Source: Asterochloris sp. CNOR1
Taxonomy: Eukaryota > Chlorophyta > Trebouxiophyceae > Trebouxiales > Trebouxiaceae
NCBI GenBank assembly: GCA_963969365.1
Contig: OZ017760.1
Location: 1,674,001-1,738,000, forward strand
DNA: 64,000 nucleotides
Direction: 5' to 3'
The stretch's first letter is position 1; every line of letters starts with the position of its first letter. The translations under genes were made by a program, and so were the position numbers. Below, in pieces: positions 11,601 to 63,800 of this stretch. The notes under the pieces were generated by a model that did no database searches, had not been told where the DNA came from, and saw only the letters and a list, made by a program, of their open reading frames with translations.

Positions 11601-14217
11601 GCTGCCGTGCTGCCCCTGGCCTCGTGTCACGCCCGCCCTGCTGCTGCAATGCAGGCCTCAAGACCCCACACTTGCCGCCACCTCACACTGCACTGAGATA
11701 ACAACTTGCATTGTATTGCCTGCACGGCAGGTCCATGCTGGGTATTACAAGAGGGCTCTATGCTGAGCAAATTGGATTGCAGGCTGCTTCCTGCAGGTCC
11801 AAAACTGCCCCTCACATGGCCTTCTGGAATTACAGGGCCAATCCCTTTCTGTCTGCGCACTGCAGGCCAACATTGACCCTGCCCTGCCCCCCGAGGAGCG
11901 CAATCTGGAGTCCCTGTGCAACAAGATGAAGCAGTACTGCTACCTGCTCGCAGACCTGACCCCCGAGTTGCTGCAGCAGGAGTGTGGCAGCGACTATGAG
12001 GCCATGCGCAAGTATCTCAGGCAGCGCGGAGTTGACGCCTACTGGCAGAAGGTGAGGGGCTCTGCCGGATGTTGGGCTTGCAGCTTCCCTCATGCAGCGG
12101 GGATGGCTGCCTGTTGGCTGAGTGCCACGCTGCGTTCTGGTGCCTCCTTATCCTCGCATGCAAAGGGACCCTGGCAGGATTGAGCGCTGCAGGGGCTGCA
12201 GTGACGTTTTCATTCAGTATGACTGCCATGGGGTCCAACTGCGTGTTTGCCACTGTGCTAATCGGCTCGCTGCATGCCTTCTGGCAGGCACAGGGAGTCG
12301 CTTCAGGCCCTGCCACCTGTCGGCTTTGCAGCTTGCTCTGGCTGCATTGGGATGGGATGCCTGATGGTATGGGGCAGGGCCAGGAGGGGATGCATTTCCT
12401 GCACCGAGCTGGTGCAAGCCTGTTTCCAATAAGGACGCACTCTGCTCGGCGCGACCTTGCCCTGCACCGCCTTGCACACTTGGCTGCTGTTGAGCATGCT
12501 GCATTGCCTCCTTGGTGCAATGCTGCCCTGCTGCCCTGCTGCCTCTGCTCACTGCTGCCCTGCTGCCTCTGCTCACTGCTGCCACCCTGCATGGTCAGCA
12601 GCTGATCTTGATGCCTGGCACACTTTTAAACTGCCTATATGTTGGTTGAATCACCGAGCCAGGGGGGCTGTTGCAGGTCACACCCGCTGCATCATTAGTT
12701 TACAGTAATCTGCCACTCTAGTGGAGGAGATTGCCAAGCCTCTGTAGCCAAAGCTGGATTGAGCTTGGCTGCATGATTGCTCTGCCATGCCGTCTGCTTA
12801 CATCGGTTCACCATGCCTGTTGGTGGGGGGAATTGCTGAGCCACTGCAGCCCGAGCTGCGAGCTTGACAGACTATCCAGCTGGCTGCATGACTGCCTGTT
12901 AAGCTGTGCGCTCACACATTGCCTCACCCCTGCCTGCAGGTGGAGGAGGTTAACAGTGCAGAGCCGGGGCTGATGCAGGATGTGCAGCGCTACTTTGTCC
13001 TTACGCAGACAGACAACCTCTGGAAGGAGCACTTGCAGGCGATCAAGTTCCTGCAACAGGTGAGCACTTTTCTAATACTAACGTGACCAGCCTAGACTCA
13101 CGCCAGCCCAGCTTTGGTGTCTGGGGTTCAACTCCGGGCCCCAGTCAGGCCTGTAGCTAGGCGCAAGACCAGACGCCATCGCTCAGCATCTTCTGTGCCT
13201 GTCGCTGTGGCACTGGCCTCATCAGAGGGGTTGTTTCACCCCCCAGGCAGCAGGATGCTCGTGCAGGCTGTGGTGCTATGCAAGCACTGCAGCACTGGCC
13301 TTATGAGAGGGTGTACTTCGCTCCAGGCAGGAGGATGCTTGTGCAGGCTCTGGGGCTGTGCAGCTGTGCCCAGAGCGGTTTCACTGGTTCACCCCTGACT
13401 GCTGTATTCCCAACCCTGTGCTTTCATGTCAATATTGATTTGTTGTTGCCACCCTGCAGGCTCTGGGGCTGTGCAGCTGTGCCCAGAGGGGTCCCCTGTT
13501 TCAAACTCTGATCCCTGTTTCCCCAACCCTGTGCTTTAATGTCAACATTGATCTATTGTGCCACCCTGCAGGCTGTGGGGCTGCGCGGCTACGCTCAGAG
13601 GGACCCTCTGGTGGAGTACAAGCTGGAGGGTTATAACCTATTTCTGGACATGATGGCCCAGATTCGGCGTAACACCATATACAATGTGTACCAGTTTGAC
13701 CCCACCAAGGTAACATCTTGTCGCCCCCACCCCCACCCCCAGCCTGGGTGGTGGGCTGCAATGCCCTGCTGGTTCTTTGTGCTACAGCACAGCAGGCCCT
13801 GTGCATGTCGATCTCTGCTCCGTGCCTGAGCCCTACCACAATATGCCTCCCATGCTACACTCCCCACTCCGGCATTCGTTGTACCTGCTGTCTCAGACAG
13901 AAGACCCTCTCACTGTACCTGCATGCTGAGCAAGCAGGCGCTGCCTGCAGGTGCCAAAGCGCCAGCAGCAGCAGTCCTCCCAGGAGACGCAGGTTGAGCA
14001 GAAGAAGCAGCAGCTTTCGGCTGAGCAGCCAGAGGTCGAGGGACCTGCAGATGGCAGTGGTGCAGGGGATGAGACGCTTGAGCATGTCGCTCAAGAGGCA
14101 CAGAAGAACGGGGCAGCACACAATGGGACCAGCGCCCAGGGCAATGGAGCCTCCAACGGCAGCAAGAGAAAGGGCGGCAAGAAGCAGAAGGCAAAATCTG
14201 GCGTGCGCAAGCGCTGA
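2645..14217 (+). CDS. SECA1: Plastid protein-translocase ATPase SecA (SECA1 type), 21 exons
   Basis: SecA drives proteins through the thylakoid Sec channel by ATP hydrolysis. Exons: 2645-2926, 3149-3286, 3764-3937, 4319-4423, 4792-4884, 5132-5256, 5464-5587, 5969-6126, 6423-6513, 6776-6938, 7299-7432, 7945-8090, 8419-8582, 9218-9348, 9676-9812, 10407-10572, 11163-11330, 11866-12051, 12940-13059, 13572-13709, 13951-14217. They total 3210 nt (1069 aa) with every phase matching. The first ~70 residues are Arg/Ser/Ala-rich and acid-poor, as in a chloroplast transit peptide. Walker A GEGKT is at 176-180, Walker B DEVD at 280-283, NMAGRGTD at 559-566 and the [15 protein letters not shown] arginine-finger region near 711-725. 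The last exon is a Gln/Lys-rich tail ending KSGVRKR without the bacterial C-terminal zinc-binding cysteines. The intron after 4884 uses a GC donor. Identity is certain; the exact ATG is inferred. Confidence 0.98.
12525..12592. repeat. Short CTGCC/CTGCT tandem repeat in SECA1 intron 18
   Basis: A unit of about 26 bases containing CTGCTGCCCTGCTGCCTCTG is repeated about two and a half times inside the long intron between exons 18 and 19. It looks like simple slippage or unequal-exchange sequence with no coding role. Confidence 0.6.
12724..12905. repeat. Diverged ~103-base duplication in SECA1 intron 18
   Basis: Two similar blocks start near 12724 and 12827. Each has a GA(A/G)ATTGC..AGCC segment, then (A)GC..GAGCTTG and a shared GGCTGCATGA(T/C)TGC segment. 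The second ends about 35 bases before exon 19. Similarity is visible by eye but diverged. It belongs to the same class of intron-internal duplication as the array at 13207-13571. Confidence 0.45.
13207..13571 (+). repeat. Tandem pseudo-exon array in SECA1 intron 19
   Basis: The start of exon 20 (GCTGTGGGGCTGCGCGGCTA, from 13572) has two decayed copies upstream, at 13347 and 13460, each right after a GCAG acceptor. Spacing is 113 and then 112 bases. In the exon the codons read [13 protein letters not shown]; in the copies they read [10 protein letters not shown] and [13 protein letters not shown]. The pyrimidine-rich flank (CCAACCCTGTGCTTTAATGT-like) is copied too. An older 80-base unit, near 13212 and 13292, precedes it. 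The copies resemble exon 5' edges with acceptors but have lost the rest of the exon. Confidence 0.85.
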
Positions 14218-14672
14218 TGTGGTGGCAGACGGCCTGCTGCGGGCATCATTGGTGCAGAGGCAGCTCCCATTGCACAAATGTGATGACTTCCCATTTTCTC
14301 AGCCTCTGAGGCAACATTTCATTCCTTGATCCATGCTTTGGAAATGCATGTATGGACTGCAGTCCTGAAATGAAGTTTGAAAGTTCCTCATCACCGTAGG
14401 CTGTTGTGCGTCGCTTGATCTGATGGTATCAGCAGCGTAAGGGCCGCTGCAGCTCAGGCCACAGCTGCAGCATGACCTGGACCAGAATGCCACAGGAGCT
14501 GCAGCTGCAAGTGCTGGTGCTCCCAGAAGTGAATGCAGTATCTATCTCTGCTCATTGATGAAAGCCACTTAGCACCCGCCAACCGCTAACCTCCGAAAAG
14601 GTGTTGACTGGGTCCCTGGGGAGCGCAATCAATCCAACAGGCAGAATGCCCTCACAATCCATGATATGATGC
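14218..14672. other. Intergenic interval between SECA1 and the apyrase gene
   Basis: 455 bases between the SECA1 stop and the apyrase start codon, both on the plus strand. It should contain the SECA1 3' UTR and the apyrase promoter. I see no convincing ORF, repeat, TGTAA signal or RNA gene. Confidence 0.5.
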
Positions 14673-24466: not shown

Positions 24467-24757
24467 GGTCAAGAAAAGCACAGATAATGCCAGAGGCAAG
24501 GCAGGAGCAGGCAGGGGCACCAGCAGGATCTTGCGCAACAGCCAGCAGGCTGCACCAGCTGCTGCAGGCCAGGCCGTGCAGAAGCAGCCAAGCACCGTAA
24601 GCAGGCGGGGCACGGCCAGGAACCCAGCCACCAGCAGAACCTCGCTTGGGGGAAAGGCTGCAGGTTGGCGTGCCTTTGGCCCAACCCAAGAAAAACGCTC
24701 TCGCCAACCCACCTTGCAGGTGCTGACTGTCTCAGCTGACATGATGCCTCAGCAGGT

Positions 24758-24799
<42 letters not shown>

Positions 24800-26805: not shown

Positions 26806-29800
26806 CTAGTGAGTGTCGCTCTCTGGATTGAGCCCATGCGCTATGGTGGCGAAGGGGCTTGCTGCCATCAGGGGGTCGAGCCCGACAGTGGCCGGCTGCT
26901 GTGGCTGCTGCCCAACTGTGGCAAATGGGCTTGCTGCTGTCAACGGGTCAAGCCTGGGCTGCTGCCCATCACTGTGTTGCACAGCAGCAAAAGGGCTTGC
27001 CGCTGTGATCGGATCCAGCTGGGTGCTGGGTGCCTGCTGTGGTGGCGGAGCAGCAGCTGCCTCCTGGCTGCCATGCTGTATTGCAGCAAAGGGGCTTGCC
27101 GCCGTGACAGAATCCAGTTGGGTGCTAGGTGCCTGCTGTGGTGGCGGGGCAGGAGCTGCCTCCTGGCTGCCATGCTGTATTGCAGCAAAGGGACTAGCCG
27201 CCATCAGAGGATCCAGCTGAGCGCTGGTGGCCTGCTGCGGTGCCTGCCTGGCAGCATCCGGCCCAGATGTAGGCCACCTGCCAGCACCGCTCTCCTGCCC
27301 CGAGCTGTGCCGGCTTTTTGAACGTGCCTGGCGCCCAGAAGGAGACTGGCTGCTGCCAGACTCAGCAGCAGGAGGGGCGGGGCCCCTGCGCCGGCCGGTG
27401 CCAGACCCCTCATGGGAACTCCCCGAGCCTCCTCCCTCACTGCTGCTGATGTGGGTGCTCTGCAGCCCCTTCAGCGCAATCTTGCGGCGCTCCTCAAAGC
27501 TCATGTTTGCAACTTCCTCCTGGCTGCGACCGTCATACTGCAGCAGGCAGAGCGCTCTGTTCAGCACCATGTTGTCTTTCTCAGGGCACATACCTTGAAG
27601 GTTGGCTTTGTCACTGAGTCCCGTCCAGAGGACGCGGTGCTGCAGGCTGGCAGAACAGCACCTGTGCTGCACGTAGGCGTGTAATGCAGTTGGGCCACAC
27701 ATAGGCAGCCAGGCCAAAGCTCATGTTTCAAACCTCTGCTGTGCTGCAGCAGTCAGCAACAGCTCTCTACATTGGCCTGGGCAAGGCCGGCAAGTTACAG
27801 CCTGAGGCTGGCTTCTGCAACAGCCATGTGAAAAGTGTTGAGCATCCGTTGCAATCTTTGGGCCTGGGCCCGGCTGCATGCTTATAATGGCTCTCTCGTG
27901 AGCTTCTCAGGCCAGGAGGCTGGCGGGCCACAAACACCACCATCAGGTGAGTATGGCCTGATGACCCTGCATTGATGCAGACCGTCTCTTGCCTGCTTGA
28001 CCCGGAGGCCTGAAGCAGACATCTCCTTGTTGCTGTTCTCAGTGGCGCCCACCTGAGCCCGTTGCCACCTCGGCAAGACCAAGCCCGCACTTGAGCAGAC
28101 CCTGGCTCACCTGCTCTGCCAGCTGAGCGGAAGCAGACAACCCCTCATCGCTGTCCTCTGTGATGAGCCCCAGGGCCTCTGCAGCCTGAGCTGCTTCAAG
28201 CCCTGATGCCGGGGGCTGCAGCCCGGCCATAGACATGTCGATGACAGCAGCGGCCTGCGCCAGCTCCGTGTTGGCAGCCCCGGTGCTGTTGACAGATATG
28301 GCTGCCCGCGCCTCTGCGCTGCTGTCAGACTGGATGGTGTCCAGCCTGGCATACCTCCTCCTGCAGGGGCACATCAGGACAGAGAACTCAGTGTGAGGGC
28401 CATTGCAGTGATCGGGGTGCAACCGGCCGCGTGATGCTGTCAAGCTGACGGTGTCCTGCCTGGCATGCCTCACTGCAGGGTGTCAGCAAACATGACTGGG
28501 AGGAGGCGTGGCAGGAATGACAACAAGCCGCTGGCAGTGGATGCAGACGTGTCACTAGTGTGCTGTGCTTTAGACCAGCCCCTGAGCAAGGCGGGGCGGC
28601 GAGACCCAAGCAGCGCATTTGCCAGCATGACTGCTGACTGCTGTGCTGAGGGTCGCACAGTCATTGCTGCAGACTAAGTTCATTGAAGACAGGACTGGCC
28701 CTTGCTGTGCTGATGCCATGAGCTTTCTGATGATCATCACATTCAGGCTCTCCCTTTAGAACATAAGCAGAGCAACCTCCTTCAGCTGCAAGGTCACCTC
28801 TGGGCCGCATCATCTTGACGCTTCTGACGCCGCTGTTGCTTCTGGGCAGCCTGAAGCGCTCGGAGGCGCTGCATGTGCTCCATCCGGGGCGGGGCAACCA
28901 CCTGCAGCGTCAGGAGATGCGATGAGGGCCTCCAGTGCACAGCAGGCAAACAATGGATGCGTCTGGGAACCTCAGCCACAAGGGAAGCAATGATGGACAG
29001 CAATGTAATTTGAGCAGCAGTCTGGGACGGTTCACAATCCTGCAGCAAGCCGCCTGTGAGAGCACTGCTCATGCAGTACACACCCTGGCAGCAGCTTTCT
29101 GCTGAGCCCGGGACTGATTACCCAGTAAGTTGGAGTAACAAGGCGGGCCAGGTGGGCAGCAGATTGCAATGCAGTGGATGCACTTGCTAGAATGTAGAGT
29201 CGTGTGAGCGCGTCTGCAACACAAGCAACGCACTTTTCGCCCTGTGCCCAGAAGTCCTCAGCCAGTGGGCCCTGCTCGCAGCCAGCAGAACCACAACCCT
29301 CACCTTCCCCTTAGCTATCTTCAGACACTGCCCACACCTGGAACTTACAGGCAACCCCTTTCACAGGCAGCCCCCCACCTGCTGCGTCTCCAGGTCGTGC
29401 TGCTGCTGCAGGGGCACTGGATCCTGCGGTGCTTGCAGGCGCTGCATCTGCTCAGAGCGGCTGCGGTGGGCCAGCATGACCGCCAGCTCCTCTTCATCAT
29501 AGTCGCAGGAGCCCACGCTGGCAGTGCTTGCTACTGACGCCATCTGCAGGTGGCGGCCTGCAGGCAGCGCTGGGCGGGTCAGCTCAGCATTCTATCATTA
29601 GTTTCGAAAGACTATGCGTATGGCCCAAAGTCCTATAACAGGTGGTCTCTGGCTGACAGCAAGGTCCAAAGTCTGCCCGCACTGGGGCCTGCACACAGCG
29701 CCCACTCATGTTGAGACAAGTAACTGCACATCCAGGCCCCGATTCGCACTGTCACCCAATCAAGACGCACTTCAAGCAGCGCAAGCCATTGCACGGGTGC

Positions 29801-32800
29801 CCTAGCAACATAGCCGCCATCACATCGCCACCTAAGCAGCGCTACAGGATGCCACTAGAAAGCACCTTGCATGGCATGCTCAGGGCACAGGAAGGGCTGC
29901 CTCTGTGCACATGCTCCCCTGTGGTAAGGTGGCCAGCATATTGTTGCAACCACAGACTACAAGCAGCCACCCAGGCCACCATCCTGTTTGGTCAGGGCCT
30001 CTCCTCATAGCAGGCATCTCCCAGGGCCGGACTGATGGTGAAATTGTGATCGATACTGCTCTCATGCAGGTAGCTGGAGAGCACATCATATCACCACCTT
30101 AGCAACAGCCTTGAGTCCTGCCCCCACACATTGCCTTACATGGGAGCAGTGCACCTGAGAGCCGGAGGCGTCCAGCAAACACACCGCATAACACTCTCAC
30201 ATGCAGCTGCGCCCCCGCCTACCAGACATGGCAAGGCCTGCACAGATGGCTTGCACCATGCTGCCGCCCCCTGCTGGGTCATTGCGATGTCCCCAAGCCC
30301 CACTGCACTGATGCAGTGGCAGATGTGCCACACAGTCTGCTTTCAGTTCCAGCAGCTGACCTGAGAATGAGCCCTGCCCAGCGAAGGGAGACGTCATGGC
30401 CGGCGGCTCAGCCCCCCCTGTCCCCGAGTTCCCTGCTTCGTCAGGGCTCATGGCCCCTGCTGTAGCAGCAGCGAGAGTCGATAGACTGTGCCGTTGCTGC
30501 CGCTGGTCCCCAGAGGATGATGACTCCTCCCCACTGCTCCGCGCCTGCGGCTGCTGCTGAATCTCAGCAAAGGGGCTTGCAGACGCCAGGTCACCACTGC
30601 GGCGCTGTGTCAGCTGCTGCGGGGCCTGCGGAGCTGGCTGACCAGCCACAAGGTCGCCGCTGCCAAAGCCTAGTGCCGGCTCGGCCTGCACGCCGCCAGT
30701 CGCTGGGTCGCTGCTTTCAAGGGCTGCCGTCCGCAGGGCAGTTGAACCCTGCGCAGGCTCTTGGGGCTGTGCCTGCGCAAAGCCGCTTGCAGAGGCCGCA
30801 TCCCTCTGTCCTGCTGGCTGCTGCTGGACCGCCGCAAAGCGGCTCAGCTCACGGCTGCTGCTCCTGGGCTGCTGCGGCGCCTGCTGAACCTGGGCAAAGG
30901 GGCTTGCAGCGGTGAGGTCCCCACCTGCAGCCCTGGCCTGAGGCTGCTGCTGCTGAACCTGGGCAAAGGGGCTCCTTTCGCTGCCCCTGCGAACTGGAGA
31001 GCCGCGTGCAACCGCCTGCTGAGACTGAGACGCTGGTAGAGGTGCAGCATCGCTGTCGCCGACCGCCTGCACCTGGGCAAAGGGGCTGGTCCAGGCTGTG
31101 TTGCTGCTGGTCTGCTGGGCAGACAGGCGCGAGGGGCCTGAGGCACGGGTGGCCATCGATGCCTGCAGCAGCACAGGCAAAGAGTCGTGAGGCATGTGTC
31201 ATCTGACCGCAATGGCTTGTCGGACACTACGGACACAGGAGACATGCAGCACCATGAGCATGACCAACCTGGCTGGGCAGACCCGTCAAGACGTGCCCCC
31301 TGTGTGAGGGCACACAAGCAGCTGATTGTGTCCCAGGTCTGCCGCCTCACAACAGCAGCTCACATACTCCTTGAAACTCTGCCCAGTCGCCTTGCTCCCA
31401 GCACTGTCCAGCTCTGCCTCCTCAATGCAATTGCATGGGCATAGGCCCCTCAAGCGGCCACAGACCGCAGTGCATGCAGCCACCTGGGACGCCGGTTGAA
31501 AGGAGCTCACGTACTCCTTGCCACCCTGCCCCAGCGCGTTGCTCGACTGGCACTGCCAGCAATAGCTGACCCTGTCCGCTGCAGGAGCTTGAGAGAGGGG
31601 CGGGCCCTGTGCACAACACAATGTGCCCACCTGGGACGCCGCCTCAAAGGGGCTCATGTACTCCCCGCCGCCTTGCCCTGCAGCTCTGCTCCCAGCACCC
31701 GCCAAAGCTGCCTCCTCCCCAGGCGCGGGCGCTCGCAGCGCTGATGACCCCATGCGCTCGGCAGTCGACCTCTCTGGCCCTGCCTCTGTCCAGCCATCTG
31801 GGGGCCCCTCGGGCAGCACTGGCCTGAAGCTGAACTGCCTGCTGCCCTGCTCCTCCAGGCTGGGGCCCCTGGAGGGACCCCTTGAGGGACCTGCTGCCCC
31901 AATGCTGGGCCCGACGGCGCTGGCAATGGAGGCCTGGCGGGACCCCGTGGTGCTGTGGGACCCTGAACGACTCATGCTGGTGGCTGCCACTCCCAGGGGC
32001 GGCGCAAAGGGCTGCTGGTGGGGTGGGGGCCGCTGGAAGCCTCCCATCTCCGCCGATGCCTGCAGGTGTGCGGGTGTGAAGGGTGGTAGCCGGTGCGACA
32101 GGCTCATGACCAGCTGCTGCCCCTCACTGCTGCAAAAATCTTTCCTGAACCCAGGGGCGACAGACACCATAGCATGCGCAGGCAACCCGGGACCTGAAGA
32201 GGCCCAGACATCGCTTTGATCGTCTGAGGACCCAGCAGACTTCTGGGTGCATGACTGGCTGGCAAGAAGCCAGTCTCCTGAACAGACAGCCTTGCACACT
32301 GTGCAACCCTGAGGCCCTGGCAGGCAGGAGCAGACGGTCTGCAGACAATGTCTCATGTATTCTTTTGCAGGCAGCACTGCAGGTGCCCTGCAGCAAAGTC
32401 AGCGGCAGCCAAGGTGCCTTGAGTGCTTGCCTGCCTGTGCTCCCCCGTCTGTGCATCCCCGGCCACTCCCCCGAACACAGGAGGCAGCTGTCCACCCTGG
32501 GCTGGGCTGCTGGCTGCGCTTGGCTGGCGCAGCGCAGGGCTGCCCTCCACAGTGCCTCCATGCAACGGGAGATGTCTAACAGGTTGTCCTCGATGCTCCT
32601 CGCTGCTCACCTGCATGGCCTGCTGGGGTGGCCCCGCGGACTGAGTGGCCAAAACGGTGGCACCTGCAGGGACCCACAAACATGGTCGTGCCCTTCGGTG
32701 TCCCGGCAGTAGGCCATCCCTACGTGGAGGCATGGAAGCGGCGCTTGCACCTGAAGAGGCATGCAGCAGGGCAGTGCTGCAAGCTGGGCTCCTTCCAGAG

Positions 32801-44800: not shown

Positions 44801-47800
44801 AGTTCGCTTGCTGTTGGTCAAAAGTTTACAGGGGCTGCTGTCATACCAGATTACAGCTTCCAAGTGCTGCAAGGTCACGCAGTGCTGGTAGACGCTTGCA
44901 ACAGAGACAAGCAGGGCTGCTGCATGCAGCGGCACTGCTGAAGGTGGACCTGCTGCACAGACAAGCAGGGTTGCACTGTAGGTGGTGACAGCAGGCATGC
45001 TCACCTGCGACAATGGCCAGGACTGGGCCCACATGCGCATGGCATTTGCCGACGTTGCTGGTGGCCGAGGGGTACAGTGGGGGACCAGCACACATACTGT
45101 CTGAGCGCAGCCTCCCCATCGCCTGCTGGTTCTGCACTCACATCAGGACCACATCAGTCAGGGGGCAACAGGCTGTGGCAGCTGTACCTGCCAGTGTAAG
45201 TCCCAGTGCACATGACAGCTTCATGAAGGTGTCCGATGGGTTGCTGCGCGTGAGCATGGCACGGTGTCCCACTGTGCACCGGTGTGGGCAGCTTTGGGAT
45301 GGCCGCCACTGCACAGCTTTTTAGCTTTGCTGTAAGCACAGGCAGCAGGTGTCAACAAGACCCCAGCGCCGTGTCACTGTACATCCTTGTGGAGTCACTA
45401 AGAGCACCAGTAGGCAACCTGGAAAAGCACTAAAAGGTCAGTGATTTGTTGAGACAGCATCTGCGACGCCTGCAGCTCTGAGGGCAGCTGGGTGGTTCAC
45501 TGGCTGCCTGCCGTCACCTTGAGAGGCCACAGGCAGCAGCCCTGAGCAGCAATTCTTGCTCACCTGAAGCGCCTGCAGATCTGCAGGCAGCTGGGTGTTC
45601 ATCAGCTGCATGGATGACATCTGGGCCAGGTGGAGCTTGGCAGCCGGCGGCTGGCTGTACAGGACCCCATCCTGCGAGGCCACTGCGAGGGAGGCAGAGC
45701 GGCTCATGGCCGGGGAGATCGTGAGGCGCTGCTGGAAGTTGGCGCTGTCAAAGTCGGCTGGGCTGGCACCCAGGCGGCTGCCTGCAGCAGGTACATGTGC
45801 ATGAGTCAGATCCTGCATTGAGGGAGCATAACAGGTGTTCACGCAGCAGGCTCTGGCGGCCATGGCATCACACACAGCGCCAAGCCAGGCCGGGGGCGAC
45901 CGCATGCAGCAGCTGCCCAGAGGCCCCACTGGGCCTTCTGACTGCAGCGCGGCAGGCAGCTGCACTCACTAGCGCGGCTGTTCTTCCCGCTGGGCAGGAC
46001 ACTGAGGGGCTCTGAGCTGCTCTGCGCAGGGCTTGGCCTGAGGACGGCAGTGGCCTCCAGCGTGAACACCAGGGCGCCGCTGTCCATCTTGCTGCTCTTC
46101 AGCAGCAGCTGCTTGACGCTGCCCTTGTCGGAGCCGGCCCACACGCAGGTGCTGTCAGGGTCGCTGCTGAGCACCCTGCAGGACCAGCAGTGGTGCCTGA
46201 GGACCCAAAGGCTTTTGAGTGGGCCTAGATACTCTGCAGGAGAGGTGTCAGTAAAAATGCTGTCGGCAAGGGCAGCTGGGAGCCCGCCTCTACCCTGAGC
46301 AGTCTGCAGGCCAGGCAAAGGCTGCTGAAATCCCTGCAGGAGAGGTGCCAACTAAACCTGCTGCTGAGATGAAAGGGGTCAAGGCATGATCCGTTTCAGG
46401 AGGACAAGCTGCAGCCACACCGGCCAGCAATTTGCAATAAGGCCTGGCGTGACCCAGCAGCTCGAGAAACCAGACCACAGTTTCAAGGAGTGGCGACTCA
46501 TGCAGCAAGTGCGTTGTGCAGCGTGTTTTGTCAGTGGCTTCTGTGAGGTCTGCACCAGCTGCTGAGCCAGGTGCCGAGCTGCCCACGTCGCTTGCAGGCA
46601 GCACCCGCAAACCCTGAGCCCACCTGATGTCTGACTGGAACGCCCGCAGGGGTGCGCAGATGGGGCTGCGGGTGGCGGCGCTCCACACGCGCACAGAGCC
46701 GCCCTTGTACCCCATCCAGATGAAGCCGCTGGGGGAGACGTGCATGCACACCACCGCTGCGTCGCTGCGGTAGTCGGTCAGCTCCTGGGTGAAGCTTGTG
46801 GCCAGGTCATGCACAAACAGCTTGCCCTTGTACACTCCGGAGATGTACCACCAGACCTGCAGGGCCAGTGGTGGATGCCTGAGGCAGAATGTGGAAGGGG
46901 ACTGGACCACAAGTGGGGGGCAATGGTACATGCAACAGGGAGCACCCATCCTCAAGCATGGACCGCCATCGCATGCCCTGGTGCTTGCAGTGCTTCTTTT
47001 CAAACTAGAAAGGTGCCTTTCTGAGTCTAGAGCACCCAGGAAACATCGACATCATGAGGATGGGCAACAAGCATCTTGCCTGCTAAGAGGTGACTGCTCT
47101 GCCCAGCAGAGAGTGCCAAAGTGCGGTAGAACTGACCTGCCCCAGGCCGCCCATCTGGTCGCCGGTCTGCTCGTGGTTGATGTACAGCATCGCCTGCACC
47201 TTGTGGCAGTGGCACCCCCTGCGCAGGCGGCTGCTGCTCAGAAGGGCGCGCTGCGCGGCAGCTGGGGAGGCGCCAGCGTCGCTGCTGGGCGCGTCAATGG
47301 CTGCTTCCACCTTTCGATTGACGTGCAGCCTGCGCAGTGGCATCAGGCAACGAATCATTGACACATTCCAGGGGGTGACCTGATCTGAGGGCGGGTGTGT
47401 GAAAGTTCCTCCTATGTGGTGGACGGACGGTGCCAGCGCAGCATGAAGCTTCAGGTGATCATGCTGGTGCCACAGTCCCTGAAAAACTCGTGTAGCCCTC
47501 ACAGCCCTTCCTCTGCTGTGTCTTAGAGCAAGCCCTGCTCTCCAGTGCAGCGTTGGACTGACCGCGTGGCCCCAAAGCGCAGCGTGGGGTGGCTGCCCTG
47601 CGCCAGCTGCCAGGCGCTGTCGGTGAGCTCCTCCAGTTGCGCAGTGATCTGGTCAAACTTGGCCTCTGGCTGCGCCCGCCAGGAGGCTGCATAGCGCGCG
47701 ATGCGGGACTGGGAGCCATAGCTCTGCAGCACAAGAACGCCATCAGCGAGGCACCAAACAGAAACAAGCTTGGCTGTGCCTGTTCAGCGCCAAAAATAGC

Positions 47801-50800: not shown

Positions 50801-53800
50801 GTGGGCTGCGGAGCGATCATGGGGGCCACGCGTGTTGCCTTGCTGTGCAACATGCATCACACGCAGCACTGGTTTCCCCCTGTCCCCTATATGGCTGGAA
50901 GGGCGGGTTTGGAGCCTGAGGGGACACAAAGCTGATTTTGGATGGACAGGCAGGCTTACATCGGGTTGCGCAGCAGGACATTCATGAACCGCATCCCATG
51001 GTGTCGGACTGCTAAAGATGAGCAGCACTCTTTGGCTTGGATGCCCCTGACCAGGATGCTCTATAAAGAGCAGCCCTGTGGTGTGGGGATGCGCTGGCTG
51101 CCTGGCTTCATTCCACTCGGATCAATGGCAGCTGTCTGAACTTGAATGCCACAGAGAAGAACGCTCAATGAAGAGCAGCCTGTGGTGCGGGGTTTCCCCT
51201 GAGTACCATTTGATGAGGAGCAGCCTGTGGTGTGCAGCTGCGCTAGCTGCCTGGCCACTCGGATCAACGGCAGCTGTCTTTGCTTAGATGCCCCTGAGCA
51301 GGCCAAAGCCTGCGGTGTGGAGCTTGAGGGCTGCCCAGCTGGGCCCCTCGCGCAGGGGTGCTGCTGCAGAGTTTGCCTGCAGCCCCCCCTGCGCCGCACG
51401 GCTCAGCGCCGTCGCCTAGCCGCCAGCACTGCGATGCAGGCAGCCCCTGCGACGGCTGCACACTCTGCTGGGTGCTGCCTGACGAATTGGCCTGCTGCAA
51501 AGAGGCAGCGCCTAAGCCCACCAAAGCCCCACCTGCAGGCAGAGGTGCAGCCGTGTCAGCCTAAAGCTCTGCTGCAGCACATGCATAGTGAGCCTATTAG
51601 CTGATGTCCCTACATGCAAGGGTCTTGCTCAACTTGCTGCCTGCCACACTTGCTGCCTGCTCCACTATCTAGCCTTGCCCTTCTGCATGCTGCGCCCTGT
51701 GTCAAAAGCGCCTGTTGGCATTGCCTAAGCCCAGGGACACAGTGCTCAGGCAATATGCAGCATGCTGCAGGTATCGATCTGCACGTTTGATCATCATTTA
51801 AGCTTACGGCGTCTGCATCCACTTGCATCCAACACACTAAGCAGCTGCACCGCATTACTTGCCTTACCAGGCTACTCACTTGACTTGCCAATTGACACGT
51901 GCACCAGGCGTCAAAGGCATCAACGAAGCTTTCCAGGCAGGCACCTCACTGTGTTGTAGTTCTGACATGTTGCTGGGAATGGCAGCCACGCTGCCTGTGC
52001 CCGACCTTGACCCCACTGTGCTCCACACAATGACCTCACCTGACCCTGGCTGCTCATGCCCTCCCTTGATCGGAGCATGCGCTGACCTATTCAAGGAAGC
52101 AGCAGAAGTCCACAGCTAGGCTTTGTGTACCTCCTGCTTCTCGATGTGGACCAGCTACACTGCTGGCTGTGCACCAGGCACTACCCTTGAGTAAGTCAGC
52201 GTGAGTGACGTGCCAATCTGCTCTGGCTCTGTGTCTGCACCCCTGGGATGGCTGGGCAACAAGCAACTACCCAGCCCCGTCCCAGCTGCTGCAATGCCCC
52301 CCTGCTCACCTGCTGGGCTGCCTGCGTCACTCCTTCCTGTGTGTCATCTTGGCAATTGCACAGGTCATTGAACCAGACTCACCAGTCACCCCAAGCCTTG
52401 CTCACCTGCTGATCTGAGAGCCCTCAGCCTTCCTCCGCTGTGTCAGAGCGGTACCTTGCACCAGGCATCTGGTGCACACTAGGAGAAAACTGTTCTGTAT
52501 TTTTGCACCCTCGCTCTGGCTTTTTGCCCACCTGCCCAGCTCGGGGTCTTCCTCGTGTGTCTGGGCTGCCTTGCCCCTGCTTCGGGCCTCTAGCTGTGGC
52601 TTTGTTTTGTGCCCGGCATGCCCACTCCATCTGCTCGTCTTCAACCCCTCAGCGGGGGTGCCAGCATCTGTCATCCCTTTCATGGGTGCCTTGGCTGTCG
52701 AGCTGCAGCTGGAGGCCTGCTCTATCGCCTGCTGCCTGGCAGCCTCCTCTGCCCGCCAGCGCTGGAGCTTGGCAGGGGCCTTCTGGGCGCCCTCGCTCAG
52801 GGGGCCCTGCCCCTCCAAGCCCTCGGTTGCCTGCTGTGCCTGGGCTGCAGCAGGCTGCCGCCCGTGTGCTGCACGACCTGCTGGCAGCTCTGCCATGGCT
52901 GCATCTGGCTGCTGCCTGTCCCCGGCAGGGGTAGGAGTAGCAGCGGCGCTGCCCTCGCGCTGAGCAGCCTCCTCTTCCCGGCAGCGCTGGCCCTCGGCAG
53001 TGGCCGGGTGGGCGCCGTCACTGAGCGGGGTCTGCTTCTCCAGGCCCTTGCCCTCCTTGGCTGCCTGCTGTGCCTTGGCTGCAGCTGGCTGCTGCCTGTC
53101 CCCAGCAGGGGTGGCCACAGCAGCGGCGTCAGCCTTGCGGTGAGCCGCCTTCCCTGGCTGGCCGGAATGGTGCTCGGGGGTGGCCATGTGGGCGCTCCCA
53201 CTCAGTGGGCCCTGCCCCCCTAGGCCCTTGGCCCGCGGCCTGCCCTCCTCGGCTGCCTGCTGTGCCTCAGCTACATTGAGCTGCTGCCCCTGCGCGGCAC
53301 CAGCGGCATCAGCAGCCAGCTCTGCCATGGCTGCAGCAGGCTGCGTCCCATCCACAGCAGGGCTGGGAGTAGCAGCAGCAGACCCAGGCTTGCACTGAGG
53401 CTGAGCTGCAGCAGGCAGCTGCCCTGCCTGGCCAGGCCTGGCGCCAGCTTCTGCAGGGGCCTGAGCCTGTGGCACCGCCTGCCTCTCTGTCTCAGCAGCA
53501 GCTGTGCTGACAGCTGCGACAGGCTGTGCCTGTGTTGGTGCCTGCCACCCATCCCCATCAGCTGTAACATCCACCTGAGCCTGCCCAGCTGTATCCTCAT
53601 GCCCCTCCTGGGCCGCCTCAGCAGCAGCAGTGGCCCCCGCTGCTGCAGAGTGCGATTCCTTGTGAGCACGTGCGGCAGCGGCAGCAGCCTCTGCCTCCTG
53701 GGCAGCCTTCAGGGCAGCAGCAGCCTTCTGCTTGCCCTCCTCGTTTCCCTGCAGCTTAGCCATGCGGGCCTCGGCCTGCTTGGCTGCTTTGGCCGCCTTC

Positions 53801-55450: not shown

Positions 55451-58400
55451 TCAAGTGTCACCCAGTGCAGGCCAGTATAGCAGTATAGCAAAGCTTTGCT
55501 TCCGCCAGCGTCTAAGTCTGGATGAAGAGCAAGGCCCTCTGTGCCACCCAGTACAGATCACGGCACAGTCTGCGCTGGGCTGAGTAGCGATGCCTGCCAT
55601 GCATTCCAACTTGTTGGCAAAGAAATACAGAGCAGTGCAGCATGAAAGGTCATCGATGCCCCCCAGCTTGTGCAGCAGAGAGCAGCATCTGCAGGAGGGC
55701 AGCAACGCAGGTGACCTCCCTTGCATGGCAGCTTGCAGCACAGAGGGAGATGCAGAGCACTGCAGCATCAGTGCCTGCCTCTCCCACAGCTGTTGCATCA
55801 GAGAGTTGCATCTGCAATGACTGCTGCCAGGTCTGATGCAGAGCAGGGTGGCGACACAACCCAGCCTTTTTCACGCTGCAATTAGCAGGAGTGCACCCGG
55901 CACCACAGGCGCCGATCAAAACCATTTACAGCAGCATGTGGCTGGGGGGCATAATGAAGGCACACCCGTCCCCAAGCAGGTGCAGCAGAACATTGTCCCC
56001 CCAATCTGCAATTGAGGCTCCACATGCAGCCTGCTGACTCACTTTTTGGCTGGCATGTACATGACCGACGTCACGTTGCGTTGGAAACCAGGGTGACGTA
56101 GGGCGTCGAGGGAATAGCAGGTGATGTCCTTATCATTCAGCACCTCCAGGTGGGTCTTGTGGATCAGCACCGCGATGTAATGCCCTGCAGCACAGTGGTC
56201 TCTGACTGCCGTTTGAAACTGGGCCACTGCTGTGCATTGCACATCCTGAGCTGCTGCCCCAGAAGCCCCAGCTGGGACCCCCTGCAGCTCATGGTGTTAC
56301 AATGATGGGGCCAACGCAGCGTCGACATGTGTCCCCTGAATCAGAAAAGGGTCCTATTGGCCTGCAGATGCGCAACACAGCTGTCATGTGGTGGTGTGGC
56401 AAGAGGGGCAACACAGCATCTGCACATATACCTCACAAATGGCACACCGCCTCCACATTTGGCTCCCTGCTGCAGGAGAGCTGCAGAACATGCACGATAC
56501 AGCTGTGGTGCAGCAGCAGGCGCCCAGCAATGGGAGGGGGCCATGTCCCAGGGATTAGGTGACATGGCAGCCTGCAGCACAGACACAGCTTGCCTGCAGC
56601 ACAGCAGCATGTGACCCACTCTACCTTATATCGCACCGTTGGCTGCCAAAGGCGAGCAGACACATTCAGCACCGTTCAGTGTCCCTCATAGAGTGCGAGT
56701 CCCCAGCAACCCAGCACATCTGTGTGGTGCAGCAGTGCCTTTCACAAGCCCCAACTGCAAGGGGTTACTGGCGCTCCAATCATTTGCTCATGGCAATGCA
56801 CGCGACGACAGTGAGGCTCATCACTTGGGGTTGTGGCCCAAACGCTGATGAATGCAGCATGAGGCACTCACTGCAGGGGGATGCAATCGGAGATGGCAAC
56901 AGAGACTTGAGAAGGAGTGAGATCACCACTGTGGAACGTATCCCTACGCTGAAGTGCTCCCCAAGGGTCATGCTGACAGGAGGTGCAGCTAATGACAGCA
57001 CAGATCTGGGAATCAAGGGCCTCACCGCTTGTTGTAGATTGAGCAAGGCTGATGATGGCAGCCCGGGCCTCCCACTCCAAGGGCATGTCAGGGGTGCGCT
57101 GGTCTGCCGGCAGGCACTCATCCAGGGACAGCAACCTCTCAAACGGCACAGCCCTGTCATCGCGTACCAATTTTTGGACCATGAAATTGTCCTGCACCAC
57201 AAGTAGCGCGATGAGGGAGCACAGACTGCACAACAGCTGCTGCATTGGCACAGTCCGTCAGCTATACTTGATGTATTCTCTACTACCCTCATCCTGCACA
57301 CTCAGAAGCTGTTGTGAGGTGCTGGTGTGTGGGACCTGTTCTCTTCTTGTGCCTGGCATCTTGCCTAGTAGACTTCTCCTGTACCAGCAGCACCATCTAA
57401 ATGTCCTCTCCCATGGTATGAGCAGCTGCTGCATGAGGCGAAGCCTCTGACTGCGCTCAATGACATTCATGTGAACGCAGTTGTTCCGCAGCACCACAAG
57501 CACCTGGGCCGCAGATATCAGATGTGCATCTGCATGGACAGCCTTGTCCCCGTGAGCAGATGCTTGATGGCTCGCCCTGCAGTAACGATAACCTGCGGGT
57601 GCTGTGCCAGGGTCAGCTATCAGAAGAAGCTGAGCTGCTCTGCACCAGACCCAGGCTGCTTTGCATGGGTCTGCAGCCACAGAGATGGAAAACCTGTGCC
57701 AGGCAGACAGGTTGCTTACCAGACAGGCTTAGGCATCCTCGTTAATGATGAGGCCCACTAAGTCGGCAGTGCTGTACAGCTTTATATGAAGGTGTGCCTC
57801 CCAAGCCATCAGGTGCAGCAGCTCTGCTCAAATGCAGGCAGTGCCTCATTTTGGTCCTCACAGAAGCTGCTGAGCTGTCATGGACCTTCCCGTCCACCCC
57901 CTCAGTCCAGCCACCACCAACAACAGTGTGCTTGTCAATGTAGCATGCAACGAGCCGCGACAACCCACAGCATGAGGCACGCCAGCTGGCAGCACATTGG
58001 AGAAAACCAGCGGCTGCACGCTGACACACTGCCTGCAGTAGCGTGCTGCAGACCCTGAAACATGCCCCAATATGTGCAGTGTTCAGCCTGCAGGTCTCTG
58101 CTGCAATGCTGATGCTGGGCTGTGTTGCCCCCTTGCTGCTTGTTTCGGTTGTCCACTGGACATGCAGGCACACAACCGTTGACCATACCACTTCAAATAG
58201 TGAGCGGCAGACACCAATGGCAGCACCTCGTGGTGAAGAAGAGACTTGACCGCGCCATCTGGCAGACTGGTACTCACCGCCCGTGGCACGTCCACTGGCA
58301 GCACCTCAGGGAAGCTCAGAGGCTGAGTGATGTCCCAGAGACCTGCTTCACATGGGCGGAGCCTTTGGTCATGCCGACAGCACGGACAGAAGTTGATGTC

Positions 58401-58586: not shown

Positions 58587-59250
58587 CTGCTGGCTCAAGC
58601 AAGCGCACGGTCAGCGTGGCACATGCACGTGCAGCAGAAAGAGACATTGACTCGCAGAGGTGCAGGCCGTCAGCACAGTGTGACCGTGTTGAAGACCCCA
58701 TCACAACATTGGTTGCTGCAAGAGCACTGGCATCACAGCGTGAGAGTCCTGCGCACACCAGATGCCGGGGGTGGGCTGGCACTGCAGACTGAAGTACTGT
58801 GCACAACCCCTCAAGGCCAGCTGCAAGGCTGCCTGGTGCTGCAGCCCTCAGGCACACTAGCTAATGCTGGGCCATTGGCACCATCCTGTCAGTACCATGC
58901 CTTTTCGATGGTCCCTGAATGTAGCTGACACACTCTGCTTCTTTGACTCTGACAGGCCACTTGTCAGTTACACAGTCCCCTGTCAGTGTTTCTGCTTCCC
59001 ACCCTGTCCCTGTGGTCCCTGCATTCTGCCCACTTACCCTGCAGCACTTGAACATATGGGCTGGCTAGGCATCCACCCTCCATTAGGCGGAGAGATATGT
59101 TTGTCTGCCCATTAAGCTGAGGCACATGGCAGGCCAAGCCCACAGGGCATGCGCAGCCATGCCACAAATGCTGCATGCCCTGCACAGGTGCATCAGGGGC
59201 TGGGGCTGACCTGCCACCAGAGAATGCTAGGTTGCAGCCCCGGTGGTCAT

Positions 59251-60760
59251 TCAAGCAGCCTCCAGTAGCAGATTGCATAGCTTGTCCAGCAAAGCCATGA
59301 GTTTGGTGCATTCCTGACTCTATAAAATCTGCAGCATGCCCACTCACCCTGCCCGCACATCCAGGCATGCAGCCTGCACCCCAGGTATGTCTATGTCTGC
59401 AGGCTGCAGCCTGCCCACATGCCCCTGCCTGAAGCTATACAGGCATGCAGCCTGCCCCTTCACCTGGCCTCTAATCCTGTAAGACGTGCAGCCTGCCCAG
59501 GCGGCCTGACAGATGCAAATTCCTGGGCAACAGCACCCCAGATATGTATTCTGCATCCCCACTTACCTTGATTGCCACTGCAATGGATGCATAGCTCTTC
59601 TGCTGCAGGCGCAGCGACAGCCTCGGCTCGTCCTCTCCAGAGTCGTGCCCCCTCTTGCACCTTTTGGTACACTTAAGCATCAGGAAGCACTTTGGGGCAG
59701 CGTCCTTTGCCTGCAGGCAGTGGCGCGTCAGGGATGGGTGCTGCTGCTTGGGCATTGTGCAGCAGGAGATAGAGCTGAGTGGAGGTTTGGGTTCCCCTTG
59801 TGCAACGCTTGCTGGTGAGCCGATGCATCTTGTTAGGCTCTGCACAGGCACCCCGGGCAGGACTTCCAACTCCGCCTGGTGGGCAGCTCGACCTCAAGGG
59901 TGCAGCAATATGCTGGGACTGTCAAAACTGTGAGCACAGGAGAGCAGTCAGGAATGCACCTCTCCGCCAAGCTCCCGGCACTGCTGTGTGTTCTCTGACA
60001 CATGGGGATCACAGGGAGCACTGGGAGGCCCCTCTCAAATGCACAGGTTTCCAGATATCACCCACCAGCTTTCAGACGTGTATGTGCTCACAGCCAGACT
60101 CTGCCCTCAGACAGACTCTGCCCTCAGACAGACAGCATCGCCTGAATCAGCATTTGCAGCATGAACTCCTCCCACAGTCTACACCTTGCCGGGAACTTAG
60201 GCGAACACAACTTTGCCCGGGCACAGCCAGCAAGTCCAGAGGGACTCACCTCCTCCACCAGCTTGCCGACCAGGGCGTCCCTCATCTCCATCGCATCTGC
60301 CTGCTCCAGCCCCCTCCCGGGCACCCCCTTCAGAGAAGTTTTCTTGTCACCCACCATCAGGTCGATGAGGGCACCGCTGTCCACAACGCCTTGTGTGAAG
60401 ATGCTGCGGCCCAGCGTGCAGATGGCGGCGTGCCAGGGGCCGCGGGCAGGGCACCCTGGCTGTGTCAACTAGTCCTTGTAGCAGTGCAACAGCACCTGAA
60501 GCGCTGCATTTACACAGCACCTGCAGGGGTGAGTGGGTCTGTGAGCAGCAGCAGGTTTCAGGGAGCCTCAGCAGCAAATTGACCGCATGTACATGACATG
60601 CACTAGGTCGTGACAGGGCACCCTGCCAAGCTTGCCTTTCATCGGGGTTGGTCAGGCCGGCATGACACGGTCGCTGGTCAGAAGCTTCCTCAACATCGGT
60701 ATTCAGCTGGTCCCACAGCGTGCGGGCAGACGCAGACACCATCTGCCGCTTTCGGCCCAT
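59251..60760 (-). CDS. Small unidentified gene, divergent from caleosin
   Basis: The ATG at 60760 opens MGRKRQMVSASARTLWDQLN. Later exons are one ending at 60250 (donor GTGAGT; coding VVDSGALIDLMVGDKKTS and MRDALVGKLVEE), 59710-59567 (FLMLKCTKRCKRGHDSGE, ending AVAIK) and 59313-59251 (CTKLMALLDKLCNLLLEAA, then TGA). The last three boundaries are in phase 0. The junction between the first and second exons, and the second exon's acceptor, are not resolved. The protein would be about 190-230 residues, charged, partly helical and Lys/Arg-rich. No family is recognised. An ATG at 60793 in the same frame would add 11 residues. Confidence 0.4.
59341..59520. repeat. Short GCATGCAGCCTGC repeats in an intron of the small gene
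   Basis: The word CATGCAGCCTGC, or a one-base variant (TGCAGCCTGCCC), recurs at least four times in about 160 bases, two of the copies about 78 bases apart. On the minus strand this is GGGCAGGCTGCA. The repeats lie between exons 59710-59567 and 59313-59251. Confidence 0.55.
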
Positions 60761-60881
60761 GGTACCTGGCAGCGATGCTCTCACGCGATGCACAGACGAC
60801 TGAAGCGCATTGTGATGATGGTTTGAACTCTAATGTCTTCTTTCCTGCTTGGACTCTAAATCTCACTCTTGACAGCAGACC
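60761..60881. promoter_or_regulatory. Putative bidirectional promoter between caleosin and the small minus-strand gene
   Basis: Only 121 bases separate the two divergent ATGs (60760 minus, 60882 plus). Both 5' UTRs and any core promoter must fit here, unless transcription of one starts inside the other gene. No TATA box is evident. The interval is less GC-rich than its flanks. Inferred from spacing alone. Confidence 0.45.
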
Positions 60882-63800
60882 ATGACAACCTCCAAGCAGA
60901 ACGGAGCCTTTGGCGACGCAGAGAAGGCCGTTTGGGAAGTGAAAGAAGTCCCTGTGACGAGCCAAAGGCCCCCTCCATCTGATCTGGAAAAGTAAGTGGC
61001 TGAGCAACGTCGATTGAGCATCAGTGCCATCCAGACAGCCCATCTTGCTCGTTGATCCCTGCTGTGATGATTATGCATGGCATGATCACCAGCTATCAAG
61101 TCAGCTCTTGTGCTGCAGGGTCATCAAGAACCCAGGGGCCCCACGGGCAAACAATGCCATCAGCAGGGAGAAGCCATCAGGTGAATCCATTCACATTGCG
61201 CGCTTTCGTGCAGACCAGCCTGCTTGTGATGCCTTGGACTGTGTCTTGCATGCCTGCAAGCTTCTGTGTCATGCCTGCAGTCACTGCTGGCTGGGCACTG
61301 CAGCCAGGCAAGTAAGCTCTGACCCAACAGCTGTGCTGCAGGCGATGCCGGCAAGGTCCCACACAACAGGACTGTCATGCAGCAGCATGTAGATTACTGG
61401 GACTTTGACAATGATGGTGAGGGGCATTGCTGGCGCGATATCTTCTGACTGCGGCATTCATCCACACATTGCTGGCAGTGCACTGGGGCGATGCACAGCC
61501 ATGAGCAGGTTTCAGACGCAATCTGCCTGCACAAGAGCCTCCTTGGAACTTCACTGCAGGGATCATCTACCCGCTGGACACATTCAAGTGAGAGCCAGCA
61601 CCAGCACACCATGTGTACAGCAACCATGTTGGGCAAATCCTCCTCCAGCAGCCACTAAGTGAACACTGGCAGCTAAGGCAGGCGGCGTACCCTGATACCT
61701 GGCCCCAGAAGGAGGCTACTTGCTTGCCGATGCTGTCGACCCATCAAGTCAGCTGTTTTGCTGCGTGTGTGCAGGGGGTTCAGGCTGCAGGGAGCACCGG
61801 TGTGGATGGCAACATTCGCAGGTGTGACTGCCTGGCGGCAGCTTTGCTCCTGAGCAACCCGGCTCTGCCAAAGTGAAGTGCTGATTCCAGCCTTTGCCAT
61901 CTGCAGTGCCTTTCATTCATGGCAGCTTCTCCTATGCCACACAGCCAGGCTGGTGAGCACTGTACTGACATAAGATGTGCTGCATTCAAAACTCAAAGCT
62001 TACGCAGCAGGACGCCACTGCCTGCCATGCATGCAGCGCACCTCAACAGCTGCTCCAGGCAACAGGCCCCTGTGCTACCCTGTCTGTGCTTCAGGATGAC
62101 CAGCTGACAGAGCTTGCCGTCCCCGCTGTGCAGGTTGCCAGACCCCTTTTTCTCCATCCACACTGACAGGATCCACAAGGTGAGCCCAGCTGCATGAGCC
62201 AGTCCTGCAGACCTGATAGCTTGGGGCAACATGAGACAGCAGACAGGGCTAGGCTGCTTGTACAGCATTCGCAGGCAGCAGCGCTGCCCGCCTCAGAAAC
62301 CCTGACACACAACAATGGTGGCTGCACTTGCAAGCATATGGCCGAGTGCTGCCACCTGCTTGCCTGACGTGTTCTGGCTGCTGCGCGAGCACTGCAGCAG
62401 GACACTGCCACTGCAGAAAGCTGGTGGCCTCTGAGGAGGGTGAGCCTGCCTTGCCACTTAGTTAGACTGCAGAGGAGAGGCACCACGCTGAGCTATCATC
62501 GCCTCTTGATGCAGCGCTGAACAACAGAGCCTTCAGGGACAATGACTGACATGTTCAGCGCAACCCTGAGCTGCTCATGCCTGCTGCAGGTGCAAGCTCT
62601 TGCATCCTGCAGTTCAACGATGGCACCTACCTTGAAGCCACTATTGTGGTGCAGGGAAAGCATGGCATCAACTGTTGACACCATGTGACTACTGACATTG
62701 AGGGGAACGCCATATCAACAGCATCTTATGTCTTGCTACAGGAGCAACCTGTCTAGGCTGCCTGCCTGGCCAATCAGTGCTGGTCCCCAGTCCATGGCTG
62801 ACTTCAACGGTTGTGCTGCAGTGCAAGCACGGCAGCGATTCTGAGACCTATGACACGGAAGGGCGCTATGTGGTGGAGAAGTTCGAGGAGCTGTGGACCA
62901 AATATGCCAAGTGAGTGGCCTGGCCAGTATGCTTATTTCCGGCCAGCCTGCAGCCTGCACTCTATGCCACCAGAGCGCCCGCTGGTCGACACTCCTTGCT
63001 TGCAGACCTGGATGAGGCGCAGCCCAGGCTGGATTCAACTGCTCTACAGAGAGGCTGAGGGCCACAACAGGCCACACATGCTCACTGTCGCACGCACCAC
63101 TCCCATTCTGCTGGGGCGCGCATCGTGCCCCCATGCCTACCAGCAGGGGATGTTACTGCATGTGCTGCATCCTGTCCAGGCGTTTCAAGCTCAGGCAAGC
63201 GCCTTCTTCGCCCTGATGCTTTGACCAGTGTTGAGTCGCCGGGAGGCAGAGTGCAGCCCATGAAGACGCTCAAACGGCAGCTGACTGCCTCTGGGACCAA
63301 TTGCTGCCCGTCTTTGCTGTCTTTCTGTCTAGATATGGCACCCAAGCCCCGTTGTAAGCAGCTGAGGACAACTTGATCAGTGTCCCTGAGACTGACAGTC
63401 ACGTGAGCCTGCAGGCTGCCCCCTGAGATATTGCAGTCCCGTTCCTGAGGCTGACAGTCATGACCACAGTGCAGGGCAAGTACGACATGACCCTGGGGGA
63501 GCAGAGGACAGTGTCCCTGGGGCTGACAGGCATGCCTCCAATGCAGGGGCAAGGACTACATGTCCCTGGAGGAGCTGTGGAACATGACGGAGGGGAACCG
63601 CAACCTGTTGGATCCCACTGGCTGGACAGCTGAGAAGCTGGAGTGGCTGGCCACCATCTACCTGTATGGAGAGAAGCGGGTGAGGAGTAGAAAACTTGTC
63701 TGGAGACAGTGTGCTGCTTGTGTAAACAACATGCATCAGGTCTGCTTTTGCAGTGCACAGGGTGCATGACCAACAACTGCCTGCACGTGCAACATTTGTT

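Follow-up and report, generated by a model that had tools for sequence, protein, structure and literature searches.

The window analysed here, 64 kb of contig C15 in the 56.4 Mb, 21-contig assembly of the green alga Asterochloris sp. CNOR1, carries a SECA1 gene and a caleosin gene on its forward strand and, between them, a long run of minus-strand exons that includes kinase sequence. Our subject is a set of small direct duplications in these genes, several of which place in an intron a second copy of the neighbouring exon edge together with its splice site. An earlier note on this DNA had named five such exon-edge duplications, and alignments of each locus confirm that all five are present, with copy size and spacing close to what it described (best pairs 72–161 bp apart, with 49–158 aligned columns). 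It took them as the trace of a boundary-centred process, while we think it probable that they are ordinary small tandem duplications, which arise at roughly random places and are then filtered by selection and splicing.

In the SECA1 array (Table 1) the predicted working acceptor lies at 13571/13572 and the decoy acceptors at 13459/13460 and 13346/13347, with a further, more decayed stretch starting at 13210. The exon at 12940-13059 covers positions 127–157 of the SecA_SW profile and the next exon resumes at 159, and this continuity across the junction places the intervening copies outside the conserved protein. The caleosin profile similarly runs from 103 to 107 across the junction before exon 63547-63679. 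In both genes the copy joined to the exon body appears to be the one that fits the protein, the decoy being left out. The two SECA1 decoys differ from the exon at several positions in the same way, so that a second, later duplication probably made one of them from the other. The decoy of exon 42293-42483, in the minus-strand region, holds an exact tandem 59-bp doubling at 42516-42634, and from these two observations it follows that duplication strikes a given place more than once and has continued until recently.

Splice sites are predicted throughout this study, as exon models were taken from an ab initio semi-Markov gene finder, self-trained on a sample of 264 kb that consists of the window and of a second stretch, C1:1000001-1200000 (200 kb), from another contig (C1 below). 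All statements at the level of the genome rest on this sample, about 0.5% of the total. The finder learned donors resembling CAG/GTGAGC and acceptors resembling CCTGCAG/G, and its exons have a median length of 128 bp and its introns a median of 254 bp (mean 308). It fuses adjacent minus-strand genes, so that one prediction has 50 exons (26806-60509, minus strand), and we expect gene counts to suffer from this more than splice boundaries do. It also reproduces the coordinates of three exons that the earlier note had assigned to a kinase, but that name gained no Pfam support: none of the three has a match at E ≤ 0.01, and within the merged prediction the kinase matches fall in three other exons (36583-36693, 37056-37238 and 37777-37974). 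The loci given before as SECA1 exon 20 and caleosin exon 9 stand, under other numbers, as exon 24 of 25 and as the tenth of ten, respectively. Pfam matches were obtained for 8/23 source exons tested, one of them (Nic96) below the curated cut-off; these are 4/9 of the exons at event sites in the window (SecA_SW, SecA_PP_bind, kinase and caleosin) and 4/14 in C1 (ribonucleotide reductase small chain, RNB, DEAD helicase and Nic96). The 15 event exons that lack a match are not thereby refuted as exons. Five further boundary cases in the window, one of them weak, are additional to the previous list.

Table 1. Duplicated features in the window (positions from its first letter)
Feature	Position	Strand	Description
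SECA1 exon 5969-6126, donor (weak)	6108..6320	+	24-bp copy 6297-6320; SecA_PP_bind exon; unlisted earlier
SECA1 array	13342..13610	+	113-bp units: intron end, acceptor and first ~40 bp of exon
SECA1 exon, 5' edge duplicated upstream twice	13572..13709	+	SecA_SW profile 159-199
Exon-internal in-frame tandem repeat	26834..27247	-	99-bp (33-codon) units
Exon 28111-28360, acceptor edge	28320..28480	-	one decayed copy 28435-28480, period 115; no Pfam match
Exon-internal in-frame duplication	30534..31087	-	period 324
Exon 31631-32059, donor edge	31341..31717	-	decayed downstream copies within 31341-31531, best pair at 147-bp spacing; no Pfam match
Kinase exon 37777-37974, donor edge	37674..37818	-	decoy 37674-37718 in downstream intron; kinase Pfam match; unlisted earlier
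Kinase exon 37777-37974, acceptor edge	37910..38170	-	decoy 38105-38170 in upstream intron; score 34, at threshold; unlisted earlier
Exon 40485-40706, acceptor edge	40667..40831	-	decoy 40787-40831; no Pfam match; unlisted earlier
Exon 42293-42483, acceptor edge	42425..42708	-	intronic copy at 161-bp spacing; no confident Pfam match
Exon 45564-45781, donor-side end	45467..45612	-	intronic copy 45467-45510; aligned part exon only; no Pfam match; unlisted earlier
Intron-internal duplication, no boundary	51022..51302	.	period 150
Exon-internal in-frame tandem repeat	52739..53424	-	period 180
Intron-internal duplication	55622..55816	.	period 125
Intron-internal duplication	59329..59458	.	period 75
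Caleosin exon 63547-63679, acceptor edge	63441..63581	+	72-bp-spaced copy 63441-63508; Caleosin Pfam match

The abundance of such duplications was estimated with a gapped scan (blastn-type scoring, score ≥34, periods 50–600 only) and a separate ungapped scan (periods 10–600, with matches built of 1–6 bp units filtered). The gapped scan returned 45 local direct matches in the window, where distant pairs give an expectation of 0.21, and 49 in C1, where they give 0.78, or 94 against about one by chance when both stretches are pooled, while inverted local matches numbered 2 in each. These distant-pair and inverted-pair controls rule out chance similarity from GC-rich composition. A wider artefact, in which GC-rich CTGCAG-type sequence together with wrongly called exons would mimic copies, could draw on the shortest pairs (24 bp at 6108 and C1 129288, 20 bp at C1 79155 and 198851) and on a gene finder that seems to have been fooled by a few decoys, but a chance level of about 1/94 on the same sequence and the Pfam matches of the source exons make it very unlikely, and for the main cases the controls contradict it. 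The matches group into 17 arrays over the 64 kb of the window and 35 over the 200 kb of C1, so arrays are denser in the window. A splice boundary is spanned, or an exon interior occupied, by 39/52 arrays, and by extrapolation there would be ~11,000 arrays in the genome if the sample is typical. Periods are mostly ~60–200 bp. The duplications are recurrent and of mixed age, as had been proposed from the window, and they are present in both stretches. Single-boundary aligned copies, consisting of part of an exon, its splice site and part of the intron, number 24, of which 8 are in the window.

The repeated occurrence of copies in introns of unrelated genes could also recall dispersed elements, that is introners or other transposons inserting near splice sites. 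The aligned copies, however, resemble their own neighbouring exon, four arrays searched against the genome (56 Mb) gave one match each (counts that are lower bounds), and direct matches more than 10 kb apart with a score ≥50 are absent from both the window and C1. An introner or transposon origin is effectively ruled out by the single genomic matches of the four arrays searched, and we give it next to no credence. Four direct matches of score ≥50 at 2.4–10 kb spacing in C1 are perhaps ordinary gene or segment duplication.

Are the duplications aimed at exon boundaries? The earlier note had argued that random tandem duplication would rarely sit there, which is not borne out, since exons and introns are so short that a unit of the observed lengths, placed at random, would include a splice boundary with a probability of 0.424–0.437. 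In the ungapped scan the boundary share, boundary/(boundary+intron), is 2/8, 1/6, 5/12, 17/25 and 4/4 for periods of 10–30, 30–50, 50–100, 100–200 and 200–600, respectively, for which random units predict 0.10, 0.22, 0.37, 0.55 and 0.83; the share thus grows with longer units, in rough agreement with geometry. The reading frame adds a second type of evidence. Exon-internal periods are multiples of three in 4/4 gapped and 7/7 ungapped cases, while this is so for 10/34 and 8/28 boundary cases and for 4/11 and 12/26 intronic ones, so divisibility by three is a mark of selection on duplications falling inside exons.

We have calculated rates per available site with exonic counts corrected for frame (one unit in three being tolerated). 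For exon, boundary and intron, respectively, they are 90.8, 77.8 and 28.5 in the gapped scan (exon n=4), 125.2, 60.3 and 37.8 in the ungapped scan at periods ≥50 (exon n=6), and 120.9, 82.0 and 58.7 at periods ≥10 (exon n=7). In-frame exon-internal duplications number 4, 6 and 7 in these three sets, where the intronic rate predicts 1.3, 1.8 and 3.4 (P = 0.039, 0.011 and 0.058). It is duplications with a coding copy, and not boundaries as such, that are in excess, a result which we regard as support, not proof, of the view that they are placed at random and filtered afterwards. Targeting predicts boundary rates above both others, whereas the order seen, with exon at or above boundary and boundary above intron, fits persistence of coding copies and supports selection combined with slower decay of these copies. 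The earlier note had named equal rates everywhere as what would overturn its boundary-centred process; intronic duplications are indeed rarer than boundary ones, as it expected, but in-frame exon-interior ones are not rarer, and with this order of rates (on exon counts of only 4, 6 and 7) such a process is not supported.

A process of this kind, with breakage or copying aimed at junctions by, for example, splice-site sequence, R-loops or nucleosome edges, would account for the excess over geometry, which persists at score ≥50, and for the many copies that end just inside the intron (both described below). It has more difficulty with a boundary share that follows unit length, with in-frame exon-internal duplications at least as common per site (small counts), and with copies whose intron side varies from 1 to 119 bp and whose exon side varies from 1 to 99 bp (24 copies), divided similarly between donor and acceptor sides (10 and 14). 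Strong targeting is weakened by the dependence on period length together with the order of rates, and on balance we hold boundary-centred duplication to be unlikely.

Several results nevertheless weigh against random placement followed by filtering. Compared to geometry, boundary cases are in excess in the gapped scan (34/45, with 23.7 expected, P = 0.001) and less so in the ungapped one (25/40, with 21.2 expected, P = 0.13), and with only exons scoring ≥10 the expectations drop to 19.8 (P printed as 0.000) and 17.7 (P = 0.012). A shift permutation gave 30/52 against a mean of 20.0 (sd 3.2), and a fraction of 0.0018 of the shifts reached the observed count; as neither decay nor selection enters this test, it was not used alone. 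(The low-complexity array at 19291-19656 was excluded from the geometry expectations for 34/45 and 25/40 and from the availability-corrected rates, and kept among the 52 arrays, in the shift test and in the decay simulation.) Simulated decay, with uniform birth, neutral decay and constrained exons, lifts the expected boundary share to 0.54–0.67, while the observed share is 0.76–0.78, with P of 0.002–0.075 at score ≥34 and 0.025–0.126 at score ≥40, and even at score ≥50, where decay should matter less, 16/18 cases are at boundaries (P = 0.004–0.032). Decay alone, as simulated, thus leaves part of the boundary excess unexplained, with room for a mild boundary or exon preference. The exon rates, moreover, rest on 4, 6 or 7 cases, and protein repeats might be favoured for their own sake, which would weaken the argument from rates.

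The ends and the structure of the copies bear on both readings. Of the 24 single-boundary copies, 11 have an alignment that stops 8 bp or less into the intron and one has an alignment that stops 8 bp or less into the exon (P = 0.006), although the overall difference in length between the two sides is less pronounced (P = 0.08). Such asymmetry would follow if selection holds coding and splice-consensus bases, and it could also be read as a preference for breakpoints just inside the intron. At C1 95882 (L011:5882-5914, 5973-6005) a 33-bp copy, 94% identical and 91 bp away, consists of the exon end plus 7 intron bases and its alignment stops abruptly; so short a length is hard to explain by decay alone, later deletion being possible. 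A clean tandem structure for every pair is also not borne out: alignments cover 80% or more of the period in only 13/52 pairs and less than half of it in 26/52, with homology past the aligned part weakly detectable (mean z of 0.42 against 0.03 in controls, P = 0.01), and therefore some pairs may be near-tandem templated copies or may have since lost sequence. Taken at face value, the boundary excess and the ends just inside the intron would make junctions mild duplication hotspots in this lineage, with breakpoints often a few bases into the intron and with splice-competent decoys in their thousands at the sampled density, a conclusion that we find unlikely.

We return, then, to duplication at roughly random sites followed by selection and splicing, for which we propose the following course. 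Small direct local duplications would arise steadily, and the likeliest source is the repair of staggered or paired breaks with fill-in synthesis, with which their direct orientation, their locality and the single genomic matches of the four arrays agree; slippage or unequal exchange on copies already present would then add further ones. A copy that breaks the frame inside an exon would be lost. A copy straddling an exon edge would do no harm so long as splicing continues to take the copy that is continuous with the exon body, leaving the other one to become part of the intron, where it would keep a splice-like site for a while and then decay, the exon copy being held by selection. Boundary pairs would in this way stay recognisable for longer than purely intronic pairs. 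In 28 exon/decoy pairs (pairs with both copies touching called exons were left out here, as in the decoy-dinucleotide and single-boundary counts), core identity is 0.787, 0.849 and 0.761 at codon positions 1, 2 and 3, with 70, 49 and 78 mismatches, respectively, and because identity at position 3 is just mildly lower, most of the change probably falls in the decoy.

What is the state of the decoys then? That the copies leave sites which still score as splice sites, as the earlier note had it, is confirmed: 19/23 aligned decoy sites keep AG or GT, and by position-weight score 11/13 acceptors and 6/10 donors lie above the 5th percentile of real sites, with 9/23 (5 acceptors and 4 donors) scoring at least as high as the predicted working site. 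This degree of preservation might mean that the intronic copies are working alternative edges, regulated decoys or poison sites, kept by selection, and splice-consensus bases in decoys are indeed better matched (113/124) than bases at exon codon positions 1 and 2 (535/654). However, at more than 10 bp from the alignment ends the splice match is 0.853–0.898 and that at codon positions 1–2 is 0.80–0.84; the gap narrows and therefore points to ascertainment at alignment ends as what the decoy conservation reflects. Use of the decoy would also lead to a frameshift or stop in 17/19 of those keeping the dinucleotide, though this would suit a poison site. We consider a working role quite improbable, and we claim no selection either to keep or to remove decoys, given that their apparent conservation is smaller at a distance from alignment ends. 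Under the random-duplication scheme we infer both which splice sites are in actual use and that decoys are neutral.

We saw no clear indication in the window that copies have given rise to new exons or introns. One copy there is called as an exon (31364-31525), with a score of 11.9 against 49.0 for its source exon. Weak exons inside copies (scores 5.9–11.9, this one included) are also called in C1, at 44046-44100, 117791-117931, 124169-124255, 188886-188936 and 196785-196808. Elsewhere in the window, positions 19297-19656 are a minisatellite with 35/69-bp units (Tandem Repeats Finder) in a predicted gene, and the exon called within it at 19340-19447 (score 10.2) is probably spurious; a perfect (AGC)13 run at 24759-24797 lies inside the predicted exon 24756-24904.

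Exon duplication is a related, known kind of arrangement with competing splice sites. Competing sites close together are also found in the GYRGYR/NAGNAG alternative tandem splice sites mentioned in PMC2891723, but unlike those 3-bp tandem sites or whole-exon duplications, the cases here have a spacing of ~60–330 bp and partial exon copies. A potato RNA-dependent RNA polymerase (RdRp) gene is described (Ma, Lan and Niu, 2016; PMC4974935) with a tandem duplication across an intron-exon boundary that takes with it a putative branch site, polypyrimidine tract and acceptor. As in that gene, local duplication here spans intron end, acceptor and exon start, and splice signals are copied with it; the potato duplication produced a new intron, seen in transcripts, whereas our copies appear, judged from sequence alone, to lie inside one existing intron. 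Small within-gene duplications that supply splice sites are likewise central to the tandem genomic duplication model of intron gain (Rogers, 1989; Gao and Lynch, 2009; Hellsten et al., 2011; as presented in PMC4974935 and PMC3443670), a route which one review calls potentially prevalent (PMC3443670). That model, as outlined there, copies an exonic AGGT segment which provides both intron ends, while the window cases copy one edge of an existing intron. In the five named cases we did not find both intron ends in AGGT copies, the best pairs copying one functional end; the second boundary touched at exon 31631-32059 belongs to a weak called exon. Outside the window, four weak C1 pairs (117652, 44016, 188864 and 196664) touch a donor and an acceptor, but on low-scoring exons. 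As to origin, small tandem duplications from the repair of 3'-overhang breaks, involving CST, Pol alpha-primase and end joining (PMC8355091), resemble ours in being direct, local and short and in lacking a dispersed source, although the work described there concerns mammalian cells, induced breaks and a class of <100 bp, and many periods here are longer. Among the papers listed by our literature search, with most subscription journals outside its reach, none describes such duplications in an alga.

The kind of event is therefore already known, and it is the density, with 52 arrays in 264 kb, that is notable. In the sample, 24/1050 predicted splice boundaries sit in an exon copy with a recognisable, purely intronic second copy nearby. 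Gene finders may call such decoys as exons, as the one used here seems to do in several places, and the standard annotation of this genome may contain false exons inside copies. At the same time, the varied decay of the copies provides a natural series for studying how the spliceosome chooses between sites that resemble each other, at what pace decoys decay, and how frequently new exons or introns come out of such duplications.

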